In this document: piece after piece, positions 7,040 through 13,747 of the stretch
How positions within the stretch are numbered: the stretch's first letter is position 1
Layout: every line of letters starts with the position of its first letter
Assembly: GCA_012797605.1 (NCBI GenBank)
Contig: JAAZOT010000016.1
Location: 1 to 53,145, forward strand
Direction: 5' to 3'
Source: Spirochaetales bacterium
Lineage (GTDB): Bacteria; Spirochaetota; JAAYUW01
Length of the DNA: 53,145 bases
Translations under genes and position numbers: made by a program
Notes under the pieces: model-generated
What the model saw: only the letters and a program-made list of their open reading frames with translations
What the model was told of the DNA's origin: nothing
Database searches by the model: none

Positions 7040-7061
7040 GGTGAATAGTGGTGAATAGTGG
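7040..7061 (+). promoter_or_regulatory. MraZ operator: GTG boxes with 10-base period
   Basis: The decamer GTGAATAGTG occurs twice head to tail (7041-7050 and 7051-7060), flanked by a G on each side. This gives regularly phased G-rich GTG/GTGG boxes. MraZ proteins are known to bind short G-rich repeats spaced by one helical turn in their own promoter (TGGGN boxes in E. coli, GTG-type boxes in mollicutes). The boxes run right up to the mraZ ATG at 7062 and also provide its only Shine-Dalgarno-like bases, so MraZ binding would block transcription start, and the repeat may affect translation too. MraZ autoregulation is inferred from family behaviour. Confidence 0.7.
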
Positions 7062-7520
7062 ATGATAAATTTTTTTGGTGAGTATAGATTTTCAATCGAT
7101 GATAAAGGTAGAACTGCATTACCAGCATCATTTAGAGATATTCTTGAAAGAGAAAATGAGGATTCAGAACATTGGGTTATAACTAAAGGAATGGAGCAGT
7201 CTATACTTTTATATCCTATTAAAATCTGGCAGCAACTACTTGAGTACTTATCTCAAAAATTATCTTACAAAAATGAGGTAGATAGGACATTTCTTCGTTA
7301 TTTTATTTTTCCCGCTAAAGAGGTTACAATAGATAAACAGGGGAGATTTATAATACCAAAAAATTTAATCGAGCATGGGAAAATTGCAAAAGATGTAGTG
7401 TTCCTAGGAGCATTGAATAAGATAGAGATATGGTCAGAAGATTACTGGGAGGGGTATATTAGTAATTCTTCTGACCAACTATCTCAACTGATAAGCAGAT
7501 TGGATGATTTGAATCTTTGA
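7062..7520 (+). CDS. mraZ: Transcriptional regulator MraZ
   Basis: MraZ is an AbrB/SpoVT-fold DNA-binding protein that forms a ring and regulates the division and cell-wall cluster it heads. The 152-residue protein shows two copies of the family motif: FGEYRFSIDDKGRTALPASFR at the N-terminus and AKEVTIDKQGRFIIPKNL in the second half (DxxGRxxxP each time). Its operator repeats lie immediately upstream. It is followed by a 196-base structured spacer and then rsmH, so readthrough into the cluster may be controlled twice, by MraZ itself and by RNA structure. Confidence 0.95.
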   Translation: MINFFGEYRFSIDDKGRTALPASFRDILERENEDSEHWVITKGMEQSILLYPIKIWQQLLEYLSQKLSYKNEVDRTFLRYFIFPAKEVTIDKQGRFIIPKNLIEHGKIAKDVVFLGALNKIEIWSEDYWEGYISNSSDQLSQLISRLDDLNL

Positions 7521-7549
7521 CTGATTCTTATTATAATTGATTTCGTTTT

Positions 7550-7599
7550 TTTTTCAAGAGAAAAATTTTTGGGAGGGGAAATTTTTTACTCTTGAAAAA
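7550..7599 (+). ncRNA. Long hairpin with G-rich loop in the mraZ-rsmH spacer
   Basis: An outer stem TTTTTCAAGAG (7550-7560) pairs perfectly with CTCTTGAAAAA (7589-7599). An inner stem AAAAATTT (7561-7568) pairs with AAATTTTT (7579-7586). Only a two-base bulge interrupts 19 pairs. The apical loop is TTGGGAGGGG, a purine-rich sequence that resembles a Shine-Dalgarno element. No start codon follows at the right distance in the loop. It is probably part of the mraZ-rsmH mRNA leader; function is unproven. Confidence 0.6.
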
Positions 7600-7610
7600 C
7601 TGGGAGGAAG

Positions 7611-7629
7611 CTGGGGCTCACTGCCCCAG
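7611..7629 (+). terminator. GC-rich hairpin after the long stem-loop (possible attenuator)
   Basis: CTGGGGC (7611-7617) pairs perfectly with GCCCCAG (7623-7629) around the loop TCACT. Stems this GC-rich are rare in this AT-rich window. It is followed by TAATTTTAAAA, so the U-run is too short for a textbook terminator; partial termination or mRNA-end protection is more likely. It is preceded by a second purine-rich block GGGAGGAAG. Confidence 0.5.
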
Positions 7630-7705
7630 TAATTTTAAAAAAATGGAAATTTAATATATAAATACTAAGTCTTCCTATTTATATACTTCATGAAATTATA
7701 AATTT

Positions 7706-7719
7706 AGGAGGTTGATATT
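7706..7719 (+). promoter_or_regulatory. Strong Shine-Dalgarno before an ATT start codon (rsmH)
   Basis: AGGAGG (7706-7711) is a full match to the anti-SD core. Five bases later comes ATT (7717-7719), in frame with rsmH. An in-frame TAG ends at 7707, and only GAG GTT GAT lie between it and ATT, so no ATG, GTG or TTG is available in this frame near the SD. The TTG at 7713 is in another frame that does not encode RsmH. Confidence 0.75.
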
Positions 7720-8595
7720 AATTATCATATTCCTGTTTTAATAAATGAAATTTTAAATCTTATTCCTCAAGATATTGATCAGGAACAAAACCTTATAGTA
7801 GATGCTTGCTTTGGTGAAGGCGGCTATACAGATATTTTTTTAGAAAAATTTAAAAAATTGTACATTTTGGGGATAGAACAGGATCCAGAAATATTTAACA
7901 TAATTAAGCAAAAATATTTGAATGAAAATAGATTGTACCTTGTTAATAGTAATTTTACAAAAATGGATGAAATATTAAAAGAAAAATTCTTATTGAATAA
8001 AAAACTCAAATTTATTGTTTTTGATTTAGGAATCTCAATGTTTCATATAAAAGAATCAAGTAAAGGGATAAGTTTCAATAAAGATTCGAAATTGGATATG
8101 AGAATCAACTTGGATGCAAAAGAAAGTGCGTATGATATTATAAATAATTATAGTAAAGAGGAATTAGCCAATTTGTTTTATAATCTTGCCGATGAAACCA
8201 TGTCGAGGCAGATAGCAAATGCAATTGTAAATTATCGAAAAATTAAAAAGATTGAGACAAATCAAGAACTTGTTAAAATTGTCCAGAGCGTAAAAAAGGA
8301 TAGGAAAAAAAATCCAGCAACTAAGGTTTTTCAGGCGTTAAGAATTAAAGTGAACAATGAACTTGAAAATCTTCAGATTGTCCTCGAAAAATCTCTGAAT
8401 TTGATCCAGAAAGATGGAATCGTTGTAGTAGTTTCTTATCATAGTGGAGAAGATAGGATAGTCAAAAATTTTATTAAAAACAACTTATCTAGACTTAAGC
8501 CAATAAATAAAAAGCCATTATTACCTGATTATCAAGAAATAAGATCAAATCAAAGTGCAAGATCCGCTAAACTACGTGCTTTTGTAAAGATATAG
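7717..8595 (+). CDS. rsmH: 16S rRNA m4C1402 methyltransferase RsmH, predicted ATT start
   Basis: RsmH (MraW) uses SAM to methylate N4 of C1402 in the P site of 16S rRNA. Reading from ATT gives 292 residues beginning [M]NYHIPVLINEIL, the conserved opening of the family (HxPVLxxE), then the SAM-binding VDACFGEGGYT. The first conventional in-frame start is TTG at 7858, 47 codons later, which would remove both motifs and leave a non-functional enzyme. Later landmarks are FDLGIS, SYHSGEDRIVK and the C-terminal SARSAKLRAF. The frame is continuous, so no frameshift is needed to explain the odd start. It precedes ftsL in the usual dcw order. Confidence 0.88.
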   Translation: MNYHIPVLINEILNLIPQDIDQEQNLIVDACFGEGGYTDIFLEKFKKLYILGIEQDPEIFNIIKQKYLNENRLYLVNSNFTKMDEILKEKFLLNKKLKFIVFDLGISMFHIKESSKGISFNKDSKLDMRINLDAKESAYDIINNYSKEELANLFYNLADETMSRQIANAIVNYRKIKKIETNQELVKIVQSVKKDRKKNPATKVFQALRIKVNNELENLQIVLEKSLNLIQKDGIVVVVSYHSGEDRIVKNFIKNNLSRLKPINKKPLLPDYQEIRSNQSARSAKLRAFVKI

Positions 8596-8621: not shown

Positions 8622-8900
8622 ATGAAATCTAATTTTTTTATGATACTTTTGGTTATCTTAATAATACTAGTAATTTCAATTATTTACTTAAAAATAGCCC
8701 AAAAAGAAAAAAGTTTAGAAAGTGAAATTGAAAGTAAGAAAAAATTAAATCACAATTTAAAACTTTTATTAAAATCAAAATTATCTATATTTAACCTATC
8801 TAAAAGTATTGAGAATGAAAACCTAAGGCCTCTTAATGAAGATGATTTGATAATCATCCAAAAAGAAGATACTAATTCTAAAGCAGAAAAAAATGAATAA
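8622..8900 (+). CDS. ftsL: FtsL-like division protein
   Basis: This 92-residue protein has one N-terminal membrane helix (about residues 4-23) followed by a charged heptad-like helix and a short C-terminal part, LRPLNEDDLIII. That is the plan of FtsL: a bitopic protein whose periplasmic coiled coil joins FtsB and FtsQ in the divisome. Direct sequence similarity is weak, as usual for FtsL, so the call rests on topology, size and its place between rsmH and the next wall gene. AGGA lies seven bases before the ATG. The last eight bases overlap the murE start, implying coupled translation. Confidence 0.7.
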   Translation: MKSNFFMILLVILIILVISIIYLKIAQKEKSLESEIESKKKLNHNLKLLLKSKLSIFNLSKSIENENLRPLNEDDLIIIQKEDTNSKAEKNE

Positions 8901-10557
8901 ATTTTACTTAAAAGATTTAATCAAATTCTTAAAAACTAATAATATCAACTTTGAAGTTTTTGATCCACTTGAACTTTTAGACAAGTTTATTGTATATAAT
9001 ATTTTTACTGATACTAGAGATGTATTGAATCAGGTTGAAGAAGATAAGCCTAAAGAATATTGTACTAAAGAGAATCGTGACAGCATTTTCATAGCAATAA
9101 AAGGGGAGAAATTTGATAGTCATCTTAAGCTAAAAGAGATCGTTCAAAATTGCAAAATAATATTTATAGAAAAAACTGATTTCTTAACTGAAGATGAAGA
9201 TTTAATTTCATTTTGCATATCCAATAAAATTATAGCAATTAAATCTAATAATAATCGTATAATAATGGCCTTTCTTTATAAATTTAAATATGATTCGATT
9301 GATGAGAAACTTAATATATTTGCCATTACTGGAACTGATGGAAAGACATCGATGGTCGCAGTACTGCATTTAATTTTTTCAAGTCTATTTGGTTTATCTG
9401 CATCAATAGGAACTTTGGGTGTAAATTTAAATGGAGTAAAATATGATTTTAAGCAAACCACTCCTACAACTCCAGAAATCAAGGATATTTATTTTATATT
9501 TGAAAATCTCTATAAAAAAGGTGTCAAGTTTATATTTATAGAAGCGACTTCCATAGCAAGCGTCCAAAAAAGACTTGAAGGTATTTCTTTTGATAATTTG
9601 TCTTTTACTACAATGACAAGTGATCATCTAGATTTTCATAAAACATTGGAAAATTACTATAATGCAAAAATTGCTTTTATAAAACAACTTGCCAATTCAA
9701 AAAAGGATATAAAAACGATTATCTATAATCTTGATGATTTAAATGTAAACCTTATAAAGCAGGAGCTTAAAAAATTTGATAATATTATAAGTTTTAACTA
9801 TGGTTATCATAAAGATTCGGATTTTAGAGTAATTGAAACCAAATATTTTAATAGGCTATTAAATGTTAAAATTGAAATATCTGAAAAAATATTAAGTTAC
9901 TATAATATACCAGCTAATAAGAAAATAATTGAAATAGACACAAATCTTATAGGAAAAGTAAATTCTTACAATATAGTTCATAGTGTGGCTCAAATTTTCA
10001 ATTATTTAATAGTTCATCAAAAAAAGGATATTAACGAATTTTTTATTTACATCGAAAAAACAAAAAAGATTTATAAAAGCCTCTGCATTCCAGGTAGAAT
10101 GGAAAGGATTGATTATAATAATAATGATATATTTATTGATTATGCTCATACTTCTGATTCTTTAAAAAATGCAATTTTGACATTAAAAGATGCTGGATAT
10201 AAAAAAATATTTACGATCATGGGTTGCGGTGGAGATCGAGATAAGACAAAAAGACCTGCTATGGGAAGAATTGCTACTGAACTTTCAGACTTTGTGATTA
10301 TTACATCAGATAATCCAAGAAATGAGGAACCTGATCAAATTATAAAAGATATCCTTGATGGGATAACCAAAGAAAATTATTTAGTAGAAATAGATAGATA
10401 TGATGCTATTAAAAAAGGACTAGATTTATTAAATAAGACAAGAGATCATGGCGCATTATTAATTGCAGGCAAAGGACATGAAGATTATCAGGAGATTAAA
10501 GGGATAAAACACCATTTTTCAGATAAAGAGGTTGTACAAAGCTTAATAAAAAAGTAA
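8893..10557 (+). CDS. murE: UDP-N-acetylmuramyl-tripeptide synthetase MurE
   Basis: MurE adds the third amino acid to UDP-MurNAc-L-Ala-D-Glu in the cytosol. The 554-residue protein shows the Mur ligase ATP loop TGTDGKTS (146-153; usually TGTNGKT), TTPTTPE, the carbamylated-lysine region YYNAKIAF (K259), DYAHTSDSL, GCGGDRDKTKRP and the third-residue recognition motif DNPR (473-476). DNPR normally marks meso-diaminopimelate enzymes. Two oddities are seen: the usual E-x-S-S-H motif reads EATSIAS, without the histidine, and the N-terminal domain is longer than usual. It overlaps ftsL by eight bases; ftsI, which often lies between them, is absent. Confidence 0.9.
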   Translation: MNKFYLKDLIKFLKTNNINFEVFDPLELLDKFIVYNIFTDTRDVLNQVEEDKPKEYCTKENRDSIFIAIKGEKFDSHLKLKEIVQNCKIIFIEKTDFLTEDEDLISFCISNKIIAIKSNNNRIIMAFLYKFKYDSIDEKLNIFAITGTDGKTSMVAVLHLIFSSLFGLSASIGTLGVNLNGVKYDFKQTTPTTPEIKDIYFIFENLYKKGVKFIFIEATSIASVQKRLEGISFDNLSFTTMTSDHLDFHKTLENYYNAKIAFIKQLANSKKDIKTIIYNLDDLNVNLIKQELKKFDNIISFNYGYHKDSDFRVIETKYFNRLLNVKIEISEKILSYYNIPANKKIIEIDTNLIGKVNSYNIVHSVAQIFNYLIVHQKKDINEFFIYIEKTKKIYKSLCIPGRMERIDYNNNDIFIDYAHTSDSLKNAILTLKDAGYKKIFTIMGCGGDRDKTKRPAMGRIATELSDFVIITSDNPRNEEPDQIIKDILDGITKENYLVEIDRYDAIKKGLDLLNKTRDHGALLIAGKGHEDYQEIKGIKHHFSDKEVVQSLIKK

Positions 10558-10606
10558 GATAAAATTTATTATAAGATAATTTTAAATTTTAATTTATAGA
10601 TAAAGT

Positions 10607-11722
10607 ATGAAAAAAAATTTTGATTTTTATATTTTGCTATCAGTGATTTGTTTATTATTAATTGGAACATTAAACATATTTTCACAGACACAGATTCAGT
10701 ATAAAGATTATCCTATTAGGAAACAGATTTTCATTAAACATCTGATTTTAATATTAATATCAATAGCGTCTGGAATAGTTTTTTATTTTTTAAATTTAGA
10801 AAAAATTATAAAATCATATTTCATACCAATTTCAATTATGATGCTCATATTGTTATTATTGCCTATTATTTTTAGAAAGTCAGTTGAAATAAATGGTTCA
10901 TATAGATGGATAACTTTTAAGTATTTTTCTATTCAGCCTTCTGAAATAAGTAAATTATATTTAATTTTGACTTTTTCATCCTGGTTTTCAAAAAAAAAGG
11001 ATTCCCAATATTCTTTTAAAAATGATTTACTTTTTCCCCTAATAATTGCTACCATAATATTATTTCTTATTTTTATTCAAAAAGATCTTTCAACTTCATT
11101 TTTAATAGGTGTATTTTTGATTGTCACTTTTATAATAATAGGGGTTCCAACTATTACTATTATTTATTTTTTATTGCTTACTCTATCTATTTTTATCATT
11201 TTAATCTTTTCAGAACAGTACAGAATTAATAGGATTATTGCATTCTTAATACCAAAAGCAAATATATCGAGTCTATCATTTCAAAATTTTCAAGCATTAC
11301 GATTTATAGGTTTAGGAGGATTGTTTGGCAAAGGTTTGGGTTGGACTATGAGTAATGGGGAGTATTTACCTCTATCATTTTCCGATTTTGCTTTTGCTAG
11401 TATTGTCTGTGAATTTGGAATCGTTGGTGGGATATTTATATTGTTTTGCTATATCATCATACTAGTAAGAGGATATATAATCTGTCATGATACATCAAAT
11501 CAGTTTGATTTTTTATTGGCTAGCTTTTCTATTTCGATGTTACTAATCCAAGTCTTTATAAATGCATCAGTGGCATTGAATCTAATTCCTCCCACAGGAG
11601 TAACACTACCTTTTGTTTCATATGGAGGTTCTTCTTTGATTGTGTCTATGATTATGATATCTATTTTATTAAAAATAAGAGTTAAAACAAAAACAAGATT
11701 CGAAATTTACGGTTCAGGTTAA
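10607..11722 (+). CDS. ftsW: SEDS-family glycan polymerase FtsW
   Basis: SEDS proteins polymerise lipid II into glycan strands with a partner class B PBP. This 371-residue protein has about ten membrane helices and the family landmarks GSYRWITFKYFSIQPSE, an IQKDLSTS segment in the position of the catalytic Asp loop (QPDxG/S in many members), a long loop with FIGLGGLFGKGLG and the C-terminal signature LIPPTGVTLPFVSYGGSSL. FtsW rather than RodA is chosen because it lies between murE and ftsQ in a division cluster. The cognate PBP gene ftsI is not in the window. Confidence 0.9.
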   Translation: MKKNFDFYILLSVICLLLIGTLNIFSQTQIQYKDYPIRKQIFIKHLILILISIASGIVFYFLNLEKIIKSYFIPISIMMLILLLLPIIFRKSVEINGSYRWITFKYFSIQPSEISKLYLILTFSSWFSKKKDSQYSFKNDLLFPLIIATIILFLIFIQKDLSTSFLIGVFLIVTFIIIGVPTITIIYFLLLTLSIFIILIFSEQYRINRIIAFLIPKANISSLSFQNFQALRFIGLGGLFGKGLGWTMSNGEYLPLSFSDFAFASIVCEFGIVGGIFILFCYIIILVRGYIICHDTSNQFDFLLASFSISMLLIQVFINASVALNLIPPTGVTLPFVSYGGSSLIVSMIMISILLKIRVKTKTRFEIYGSG

Positions 11723-11774
11723 ATTAAGATATTAAAAGATATTTTAATTGAATAATATTTAAGGTTTTAGGAAA

Positions 11775-12524
11775 ATGAAGTTTGATGCAATGGATAAATT
11801 TAATTTGCACAGTGAAAGAAAAGAAAGATCAAAAGTATTAGTTTTAATATTGATAATAATACTTTTTACTGTTGTTTTTATTTTACTTGTATACTTAAAT
11901 TCAGTAAAGTTATCTCGAATCGAACTAGTAATTTTGGGTTTATCCGATGATTTTAAGCAAGATTTTTATGCTATAATAAAAGATAAAACAATTTTATTGA
12001 CAATTTTACCAAATTTTGATGATAGAATTGAACAATTATATTATATTGAGAAAATAAAAATTCATCATGTTTCAATTAAAAAAATTATTTTTTCAATTTC
12101 TGAAAAAAAGCCTTACTGTATAGTTTATGACAGAAATAATGGGATTTTTTATCAAATTACTAAAGATTTTATTGTTTTAAGAAAAATTTTTAATAATTCA
12201 ATCTTAAATTATTATATAGTTTCTATAGATTTCCCTAAAATATTTAATAAAGGTGAAAAAATAGAATTTCTAAATAATAAGATAGATTTATATAATGAAG
12301 ATTATCAATTATCCGAAATTATTGTAGACAAAGGAAATATTTTTGGTATTCCAGTTAAACATAAAAATATTATACTATTTGGGACATTTGTGGATAAAGT
12401 TAAATTGAAAAACTTAAGATTATTATTTTCTTTTATGGATGATAAAAAGGAAGATGTAAGATTTAGCAGAATAAAATATATTGATTTTACATATTCTGAT
12501 ATAGCAAGAATTATTTTTGAATAG
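11775..12524 (+). CDS. ftsQ: Cell division protein FtsQ/DivIB
   Basis: The 249-residue protein has a short basic cytoplasmic tail, one membrane helix (about residues 21-42) and a periplasmic domain. The pattern YYIEKIKIHHVSIKKIIFSISEKKPYCIV matches the 'I-x-x-V-x-V-x-x-x-P-x-x-L-x-I-x-I-x-E-x-x-P' run of the FtsQ beta domain, and YIDFTYSDIARIIF fits its C-terminal strand (D-L-R-Y-x-D-R). A POTRA domain would occupy residues ~45-100 but is not clearly readable. FtsQ links FtsL/FtsB to the rest of the divisome. The stop codon overlaps the Shine-Dalgarno of ftsA, so the pair is tightly coupled. Confidence 0.85.
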   Translation: MKFDAMDKFNLHSERKERSKVLVLILIIILFTVVFILLVYLNSVKLSRIELVILGLSDDFKQDFYAIIKDKTILLTILPNFDDRIEQLYYIEKIKIHHVSIKKIIFSISEKKPYCIVYDRNNGIFYQITKDFIVLRKIFNNSILNYYIVSIDFPKIFNKGEKIEFLNNKIDLYNEDYQLSEIIVDKGNIFGIPVKHKNIILFGTFVDKVKLKNLRLLFSFMDDKKEDVRFSRIKYIDFTYSDIARIIFE

Positions 12525-12535
12525 GAGAAACTTGT

Positions 12536-13747
12536 TTGAAAAGTGGAATTTTAGCTGCATGTGATATTGGTTCCTCTAAAGTTTGCTGTGGAATTGCAAG
12601 AGTAGATGAAAATCAAGAGTTTTCATTGATTGGTTTTGGGCAAACAGTTTCTAAAGGGATTCGAAAGGGAGTTGTTTCAAATATTGAAGCAGTTACCAAA
12701 AATATAATTGAAGCCGTAACTGAAGCCGAGGTAATGGCTGGAGAATCTATATCATCCTTGACTATAAATATAAGTGGAGATCATATTAGTTCTTCTAATT
12801 CTACTGGAGTAGTTGCTGTTTCAGGGAAAAATAAAGAAATAACTGTTGAAGATGTAAAGAGAGTAATTAATGCCGCAAGAACCGTCGTTATACCAAAAGG
12901 CAGAGAAATGATACATGTTCTTGAACAACATTATACTGTTGACGATCAAGTTGATATCAAAGATCCTATTGGCATGACTGGTGTTCGATTGGAAACATCA
13001 GTACACTTGGTTACTGGTTCTATGATGCTTCTATTAAACTTAAAAAACGCGATACTAAGATCTGGTTATAGTTTTCAAGATATTATTATTTCATCACTAG
13101 CTTCATCTGCTGCTTGCATTTCAGATGATGAAAAAGAACTTGGTGTTATATTGATAGATATTGGTTCAGAAACAACAGATTTAATCTGCTATTACAACAA
13201 TGCAGTAATATACTCATCGGTTATTCCTATTGGTAGCTCTAATATAACCAAAGATATTGCTATCATGCTTAAAATACCTATAAAAGAAGCTGAGAATTTA
13301 AAGATAAATAGTGGTTATGCATATTCAGAAGATGTTGATAATGATGAAAAGATCGAGATTCCCGCTATTGGAGCGAATCCTTCAAAATTAGAATCTAAAA
13401 AATTCTTGTCTGAGGTAATCGAAGCAAGAGTAAAAGAAATATTAGAACAGGTAAATTTTCATATAAATAAAGGGGATTTAAGAAAGAGAATCCCATCAGG
13501 AATAGTTTTAACTGGAGGAGGTTCAAAACTACAAGGTATTGAAAGGCTTTGTTATGAATATCTTAAAATTCCAGTTAGGATTGGTTTCCCTTATGGTTTT
13601 AGTTCTGTAAACAACAACATATTCTCTCCAGAGTATTCTGTTTTAGTTGGTCTTTTGCTTTTAAGCCTTGAAGATACAAAACTTGAAGTAAAAGAAAAAG
13701 ATAAAAAAGGTTTTTTTGAAAAATTTAAATCTTTTTTTTCGAAATAG
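12536..13747 (+). CDS. ftsA: Cell division protein FtsA (TTG start)
   Basis: FtsA is an actin-like ATPase that anchors FtsZ to the membrane. The 403-residue protein begins AACDIGSSKVCCGIA (phosphate-1 loop), has the FtsA-specific 1C domain (residues ~85-165), then VILIDIGSETTDLICY (phosphate-2), and GIVLTGGGSKLQGI (adenosine loop). The C-terminus GFFEKFKSFFSK is a short amphipathic helix, the typical membrane-targeting tail. The start is TTG, seven bases after AGGAGA; no ATG or GTG lies nearby in frame. It is followed by a 178-base spacer before ftsZ. Confidence 0.95.
   Translation: MKSGILAACDIGSSKVCCGIARVDENQEFSLIGFGQTVSKGIRKGVVSNIEAVTKNIIEAVTEAEVMAGESISSLTINISGDHISSSNSTGVVAVSGKNKEITVEDVKRVINAARTVVIPKGREMIHVLEQHYTVDDQVDIKDPIGMTGVRLETSVHLVTGSMMLLLNLKNAILRSGYSFQDIIISSLASSAACISDDEKELGVILIDIGSETTDLICYYNNAVIYSSVIPIGSSNITKDIAIMLKIPIKEAENLKINSGYAYSEDVDNDEKIEIPAIGANPSKLESKKFLSEVIEARVKEILEQVNFHINKGDLRKRIPSGIVLTGGGSKLQGIERLCYEYLKIPVRIGFPYGFSSVNNNIFSPEYSVLVGLLLLSLEDTKLEVKEKDKKGFFEKFKSFFSK

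Follow-up and report, generated by a model that had tools for sequence, protein, structure and literature searches.

A probable AUU or AUA start codon at rsmH, with a layout common to infC, in a genus of Spirochaetales bacteria and its possible role in a feedback through 16S rRNA methylation

Results

The rsmH gene of a Spirochaetales bacterium is very probably translated from a true AUU codon, the ATT at position 7717 being its only plausible start in the window, i.e., in the whole stretch of 53,145 nucleotides that was analysed (assembly GCA_012797605.1, contig JAAZOT010000016.1). Despite their divergence, all three genomes of the genus keep a non-canonical start at this site; it has the same layout as the start of infC, which encodes IF3, and is rare among the other genes sampled. 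Comparison between genomes confirms the observation and shows that it concerns not a single codon but a trait of the genus, common to rsmH and infC. The window belongs to a genome of 2.07 Mb in 104 contigs (G000), and the comparison covered four genomes within the class (G000 to G003, the last one from a sister family) and three within the genus (G000, G001 and G002, apparently all MAGs). The features of the window on which the analysis bears are the following:

7062..7520, + strand: mraZ, first gene of a dcw-type cluster (PF02381)
7550..7630, + strand: two hairpins in the mraZ-rsmH spacer (folding; conservation in G001 and G002)
7705..7707, + strand: in-frame TAG before rsmH (frame reading)
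7706..7711, + strand: Shine-Dalgarno AGGAGG of rsmH (Shine-Dalgarno score; spacing at the mode of the genus)
7717..7719, + strand: probable ATT start codon of rsmH, ATT in G001 and ATA in G002 (frame and relatives)
7717..8595, + strand: rsmH (mraW), 16S rRNA C1402 N4-methyltransferase (PF01795, motifs)
8622..13747, + strand: downstream cluster with a small ftsL-position ORF, a Mur ligase, an FtsW/RodA-type protein, an ftsQ-position ORF and ftsA (Pfam)

The Shine-Dalgarno of rsmH, which has the top score among the genes called in the window, is followed by TTGAT and then by ATT, with its GGAG core ending 6 bases before the start codon. This ATT is in frame with NYHIPVLINEIL...VDACFGEGGYT, and the frame ends at TAG 8593-8595. 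Upstream, the in-frame TAG at 7705-7707, 12 bases before the ATT, bars any start further upstream, and only GAG GTT GAT ATT separates it from the AAT at 7720, the frame then continuing AAT TAT CAT ATT CCT GTT; the ATT is thus the sole near-cognate codon at a usable spacing from AGGAGG. Downstream, the first canonical in-frame codon is TTG 7858, which is codon 48 and lies beyond VDACFGEGG, so that a start there would deprive RsmH of its SAM-binding motif. Re-reading the frame therefore bears out what a previous sequence-only reading had described, namely AGGAGG, five bases and an in-frame ATT, a stop 12 bases before it and the loss of the SAM site from TTG 7858.

The encoded protein matches PF01795 (MraW/RsmH) over its full length (268.6 bits, profile positions 4-308 of 309), and this is the single match of the profile in G000. 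The catalytic motifs VDACFGEGG, DLGIS, LDMR, SYHSGEDR and RSAKLR are intact and are found in all three genomes of the genus. The gene is preceded by mraZ and followed by a dcw-type cluster that includes ftsA and the genes for a Mur ligase and an FtsW/RodA-type protein. The genes of 8622..13747 all have ordinary starts; neither the ftsL-position nor the ftsQ-position ORF has a Pfam match.

In the relatives, the start reads AAGGAG ATGTTT ATT AAC TAC CAT in G001 and AAGGAG ATTAGT ATA AAT TAC CAT in G002, so that an AUH codon (ATT, ATT and ATA in G000, G001 and G002, respectively) lies exactly 6 bases past GGAG in each case. This sharing is not a mere consequence of recency, as RsmH of the two other genomes is 69% and 56% identical to that of G000 and the four-fold sites of rsmH in the three genomes, near saturation, are 32-51% identical, compared to 32-36% expected.

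It could be argued that AUU is not the working start, the ATT being a sequencing error or the gene being decayed, with TTG 7858 used instead or, in G001, the in-frame ATG that directly abuts AAGGAG. We consider this very improbable. Three separate assemblies agree on an AUH codon, which effectively removes the possibility of a sequencing error that the previous reading had raised and provides the alignment in relatives for which it had called; no ATG, GTG or TTG occurs among the first 70 codons of rsmH in G002; a start at TTG 7858 would remove the SAM motif; and the catalytic motifs are intact. As for the ATG of G001, the distance from GGAG to the start is mostly 5-8 in the genus and rarely 0 (2 of about 130 in G001, one of which is presumably rsmH itself), and for this reason the ATT appears as the better start there, even though the ATG could contribute.

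In this genus, AUH appears to have secondarily replaced an ordinary rsmH start, since rsmH of G003 starts at ATG and, of the rsmH genes sampled in the rest of the phylum, most have ATG, GTG or TTG about where the start is expected. At the further loci of the phylum, whose starts were read except for L030 and L045, one of these codons precedes the HxPV motif at a short distance or, at a small number of loci, lies further upstream. A contig scan gave rsmH of five relatives, in which the readable starts are all ATG. At L030 (rsmH of G016), a stop interrupts the 5' end just past a TAT CAT GGT stretch, which could be due to an assembly error or to truncation. Finally, the pattern AGGAGN{4,8}ATHNNNYAYCAYNNNCCNGTN has a single match in every genome of the genus (3 of 149 genomes of the phylum), each time at rsmH, and none in the 146 other genomes or in a reversed control, which is more than chance would give. 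A phylum-wide AUH start at rsmH was thus discarded, the strict pattern having no match beyond the genus and a looser one being too noisy; a match of the latter in G211, resembling an rsmH start, is not accompanied by any rsmH-like frame.

The same architecture is found at infC. Its start reads AAGGAG-CTTAAT-ATA in G000 (L052), AAGGAG-TATAAC-ATC and AAGGAG-TATCCC-ATC in the other two members of the genus (ATC in both G002, L053, and G001, L054), and AAGGGG-TAATTT-ATA in G003 (L051). In each of the three genomes of the genus, rsmH and infC therefore both have a Shine-Dalgarno, six bases and an AUH codon.

To define a baseline, partial samples of G000 (548 kb) and G001 (677 kb) were used, giving 108 ortholog pairs in which infC is counted twice, as its locus was sampled twice; 22 pairs were flagged by script and then read by eye, the abutting ATG of rsmH in G001 being set aside for its spacing. 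Among these 108 pairs, rsmH and infC are the only ones without an ordinary start in both genomes. Of 415 ORFs of G000, four are AUH candidates, and only rsmH and infC combine a 6-base Shine-Dalgarno with the lack of a nearby ordinary start. In 548 ORFs of G001, infC is the only candidate found, rsmH being missed owing to its abutting ATG. The pairs and the ORF scans rule out a general use of AUH starts in the lineage. Sporadic cases do exist, such as a G001 gene, presumably DUF2804-like, that apparently starts at the ATA of AGGAGG-AATTT-ATA (L130, about 9210-9240) and whose G000 ortholog starts at ATG. Among functionally related genes, rsmI, the gene for a further methyltransferase acting on the RsmH target nucleotide, starts at ATG in both G000 and G001, and ksgA, encoding an enzyme of the same or a neighbouring rRNA site, apparently at TTG, TTG and ATG. 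When 16S rRNA was looked for, in order to read C1402 and the anti-Shine-Dalgarno, none was found in any of the four genomes.

The spacer between mraZ and rsmH is structured (7535-7680, -41.4 kcal/mol, z -4.3). A first hairpin at about 7550-7599 has GGGAGG in its loop and a second one is formed at 7610-7630 (GCTGGGG/CCCCAGT); both are kept in G001, and the second one in G002, where it is terminator-like. The core GGGAGG(GG)AAGCTGGG is common to the three genomes of the genus and is found nowhere else in the sampled loci. These hairpins may serve transcriptional attenuation or another leader function before translation starts. A further hairpin pairs the Shine-Dalgarno of rsmH in G000 (-11 kcal/mol, z -2.3), and is absent in G001 (z 0.4) and G002 (z -0.5).

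Two other observations were made in this region. A direct repeat, GGTGAATAGT in two copies at 7040-7059, immediately precedes the ATG of mraZ and resembles, as far as we can judge, MraZ operator repeats. Tiny ORFs starting ATGAAATTA are found just upstream of the rsmH Shine-Dalgarno in G000 (7690-7701) and G002 (L056, near 10700-10720), are absent in G001 and are probably due to chance.

Discussion

The m4Cm1402 mark is nearly universal, its purpose has long been debated and knockouts usually have weak phenotypes. The effect of RsmH on AUU is known only from E. coli, through papers that cite Kimura & Suzuki (2010). According to these papers, loss of RsmH raises mis-initiation at AUU and impairs initiation at GUG and UUG (PMC13317604), and non-AUG initiation goes up without RsmH (PMC6821322). 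The direction of the link between RsmH and non-AUG initiation, which the sequence-only reading had left to be checked, is thus settled for E. coli as far as these papers go: as RsmH lowers initiation at AUU, an AUU-started rsmH should repress itself, i.e., the feedback should be negative, while the sign would be reversed for GUG or UUG. On its side, IF3 rejects start codons that do not end in G and discriminates against AUH (PMC4611024), and infC autoregulates through the rejection of its own start codon by IF3 (PMC5472188).

The reading that we favour, and to which we would give nearly an even chance, is that the AUU start of rsmH senses C1402 methylation in a negative loop coupled with that of IF3. 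A strong, well-spaced Shine-Dalgarno would support initiation at AUU, while the codon itself would make RsmH synthesis inefficient and dependent on the strictness of 30S subunits against AUH codons, a strictness set by IF3 and, from the E. coli literature, by C1402 methylation, the work of RsmH itself. If unmethylated 30S subunits accumulated, for example when rRNA synthesis outruns RsmH, AUU would be more readily accepted and RsmH would rise; once C1402 is fully methylated, initiation at rsmH would fall. Such a loop would be negative; it would run in parallel with the IF3 loop and be linked to it. Of the self-sensing loop suggested by the sequence-only reading, the AUU start is now backed by comparison (an AUH codon in three of the three genomes of the genus, the infC layout and the rarity of such starts) and the direction by the literature; we infer that the loop is at work here and is what maintains the codon, the proposal being plausible and correctly signed. 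A related possibility, put forward tentatively, is a two-gene fidelity regulon, in which IF3 and RsmH would both be translated from codons that they make ribosomes reject, the methylation of 30S subunits being sensed through rsmH mRNA.

Several points weigh against the loop. If C1402 is normally fully methylated, it would act in transients only. The effect of B. subtilis MraW on structured mRNAs would point the other way for the start hairpin of G000. The AUH start is also limited to the three genomes of the genus.

The same start could, alternatively, be a static device, without feedback, that does no more than keep RsmH synthesis low in a cluster where the Mur ligase, FtsW and FtsA are needed in larger amounts. 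The position of rsmH between mraZ and cell-division genes fits this explanation, as do the yield of non-canonical starts in S. aureus, about 10% of AUG output (PMC13009471), and the mRNA level of rsmH in E. coli, the lowest among rRNA methyltransferase genes (PMC7056703). A weak Shine-Dalgarno, a GTG or a TTG would nevertheless suffice for this purpose, whereas a near-perfect Shine-Dalgarno with an AUH codon is the layout of infC, and the other genes sampled are not tuned by AUH starts; we therefore find static tuning credible but unlikely. It is also conceivable, and in our opinion quite unlikely, that control is exerted by IF3 only, rsmH and infC forming a small AUH set comparable to sigR of Streptomyces and C1402 methylation having no quantitative part. 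The AAGGAG-N6-AUH layout, the same in both genes and in all three genomes, would agree with this, and so would the repression by IF3 of AUH codons (PMC4611024) and of sigR, a GTC-start gene (PMC5472188), but RsmH is also credited with an effect on AUU, which would have to be missing or too small to matter in this organism.

In the literature searched, we found no mention of an rsmH gene with an AUH start, and we know of no other rRNA-modifying enzyme whose choice of start codon may let it sense its own modification. A natural rsmH gene that starts at the very codon on which its own enzyme is reported to act offers a direct test of the role of m4Cm1402. The start codon suggests, short of proof, that this enzyme limits its own production, as IF3 does through infC. 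In practice, gene finders limited to ATG, GTG and TTG would truncate or miss genes with AUH starts such as rsmH and infC.

Among known systems, S. aureus cvfC1 (AUU) and ccpN (AUA), Streptomyces sigR (GTC) and E. coli pcnB (AUU) likewise have a conserved non-canonical start that lowers initiation, with an extended Shine-Dalgarno, as in rsmH, for the two S. aureus genes; unlike rsmH, however, none of them is known to encode a product that itself alters the stringency of start-codon selection. In eukaryotes, eIF1, eIF5 and BZW (PMC5823381) follow a similar logic, as a gene that sets stringency and has a poor start controls itself, but the poor element is the context around an AUG during scanning and not a non-AUG codon after a Shine-Dalgarno.

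MraW-dependent translation in B. subtilis (PMC13317604) also shows C1402 methylation altering the translation of particular mRNAs. There, however, mRNA stem-loops are needed, methylation enhances the translation of structured mRNAs, and the genes affected are cmpA, isp and yukJ rather than mraW itself. A conserved stem-loop of the cmpA type, over the Shine-Dalgarno, the start or the early codons, was not found at rsmH in the three genomes of the genus; as the hairpin pairing the Shine-Dalgarno is present in G000 only, a mechanism of this type is not conserved at this gene.

The nearest parallel is infC itself, which combines an AUH codon with a strong Shine-Dalgarno, whose product raises the rejection of AUH, for which negative feedback is expected and whose layout is present in these very genomes. 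The proposed feedback at rsmH would differ from that of infC in its agent: whereas IF3 is a factor that binds in each initiation, RsmH is an rRNA methyltransferase and leaves a lasting covalent mark on the 30S subunit.
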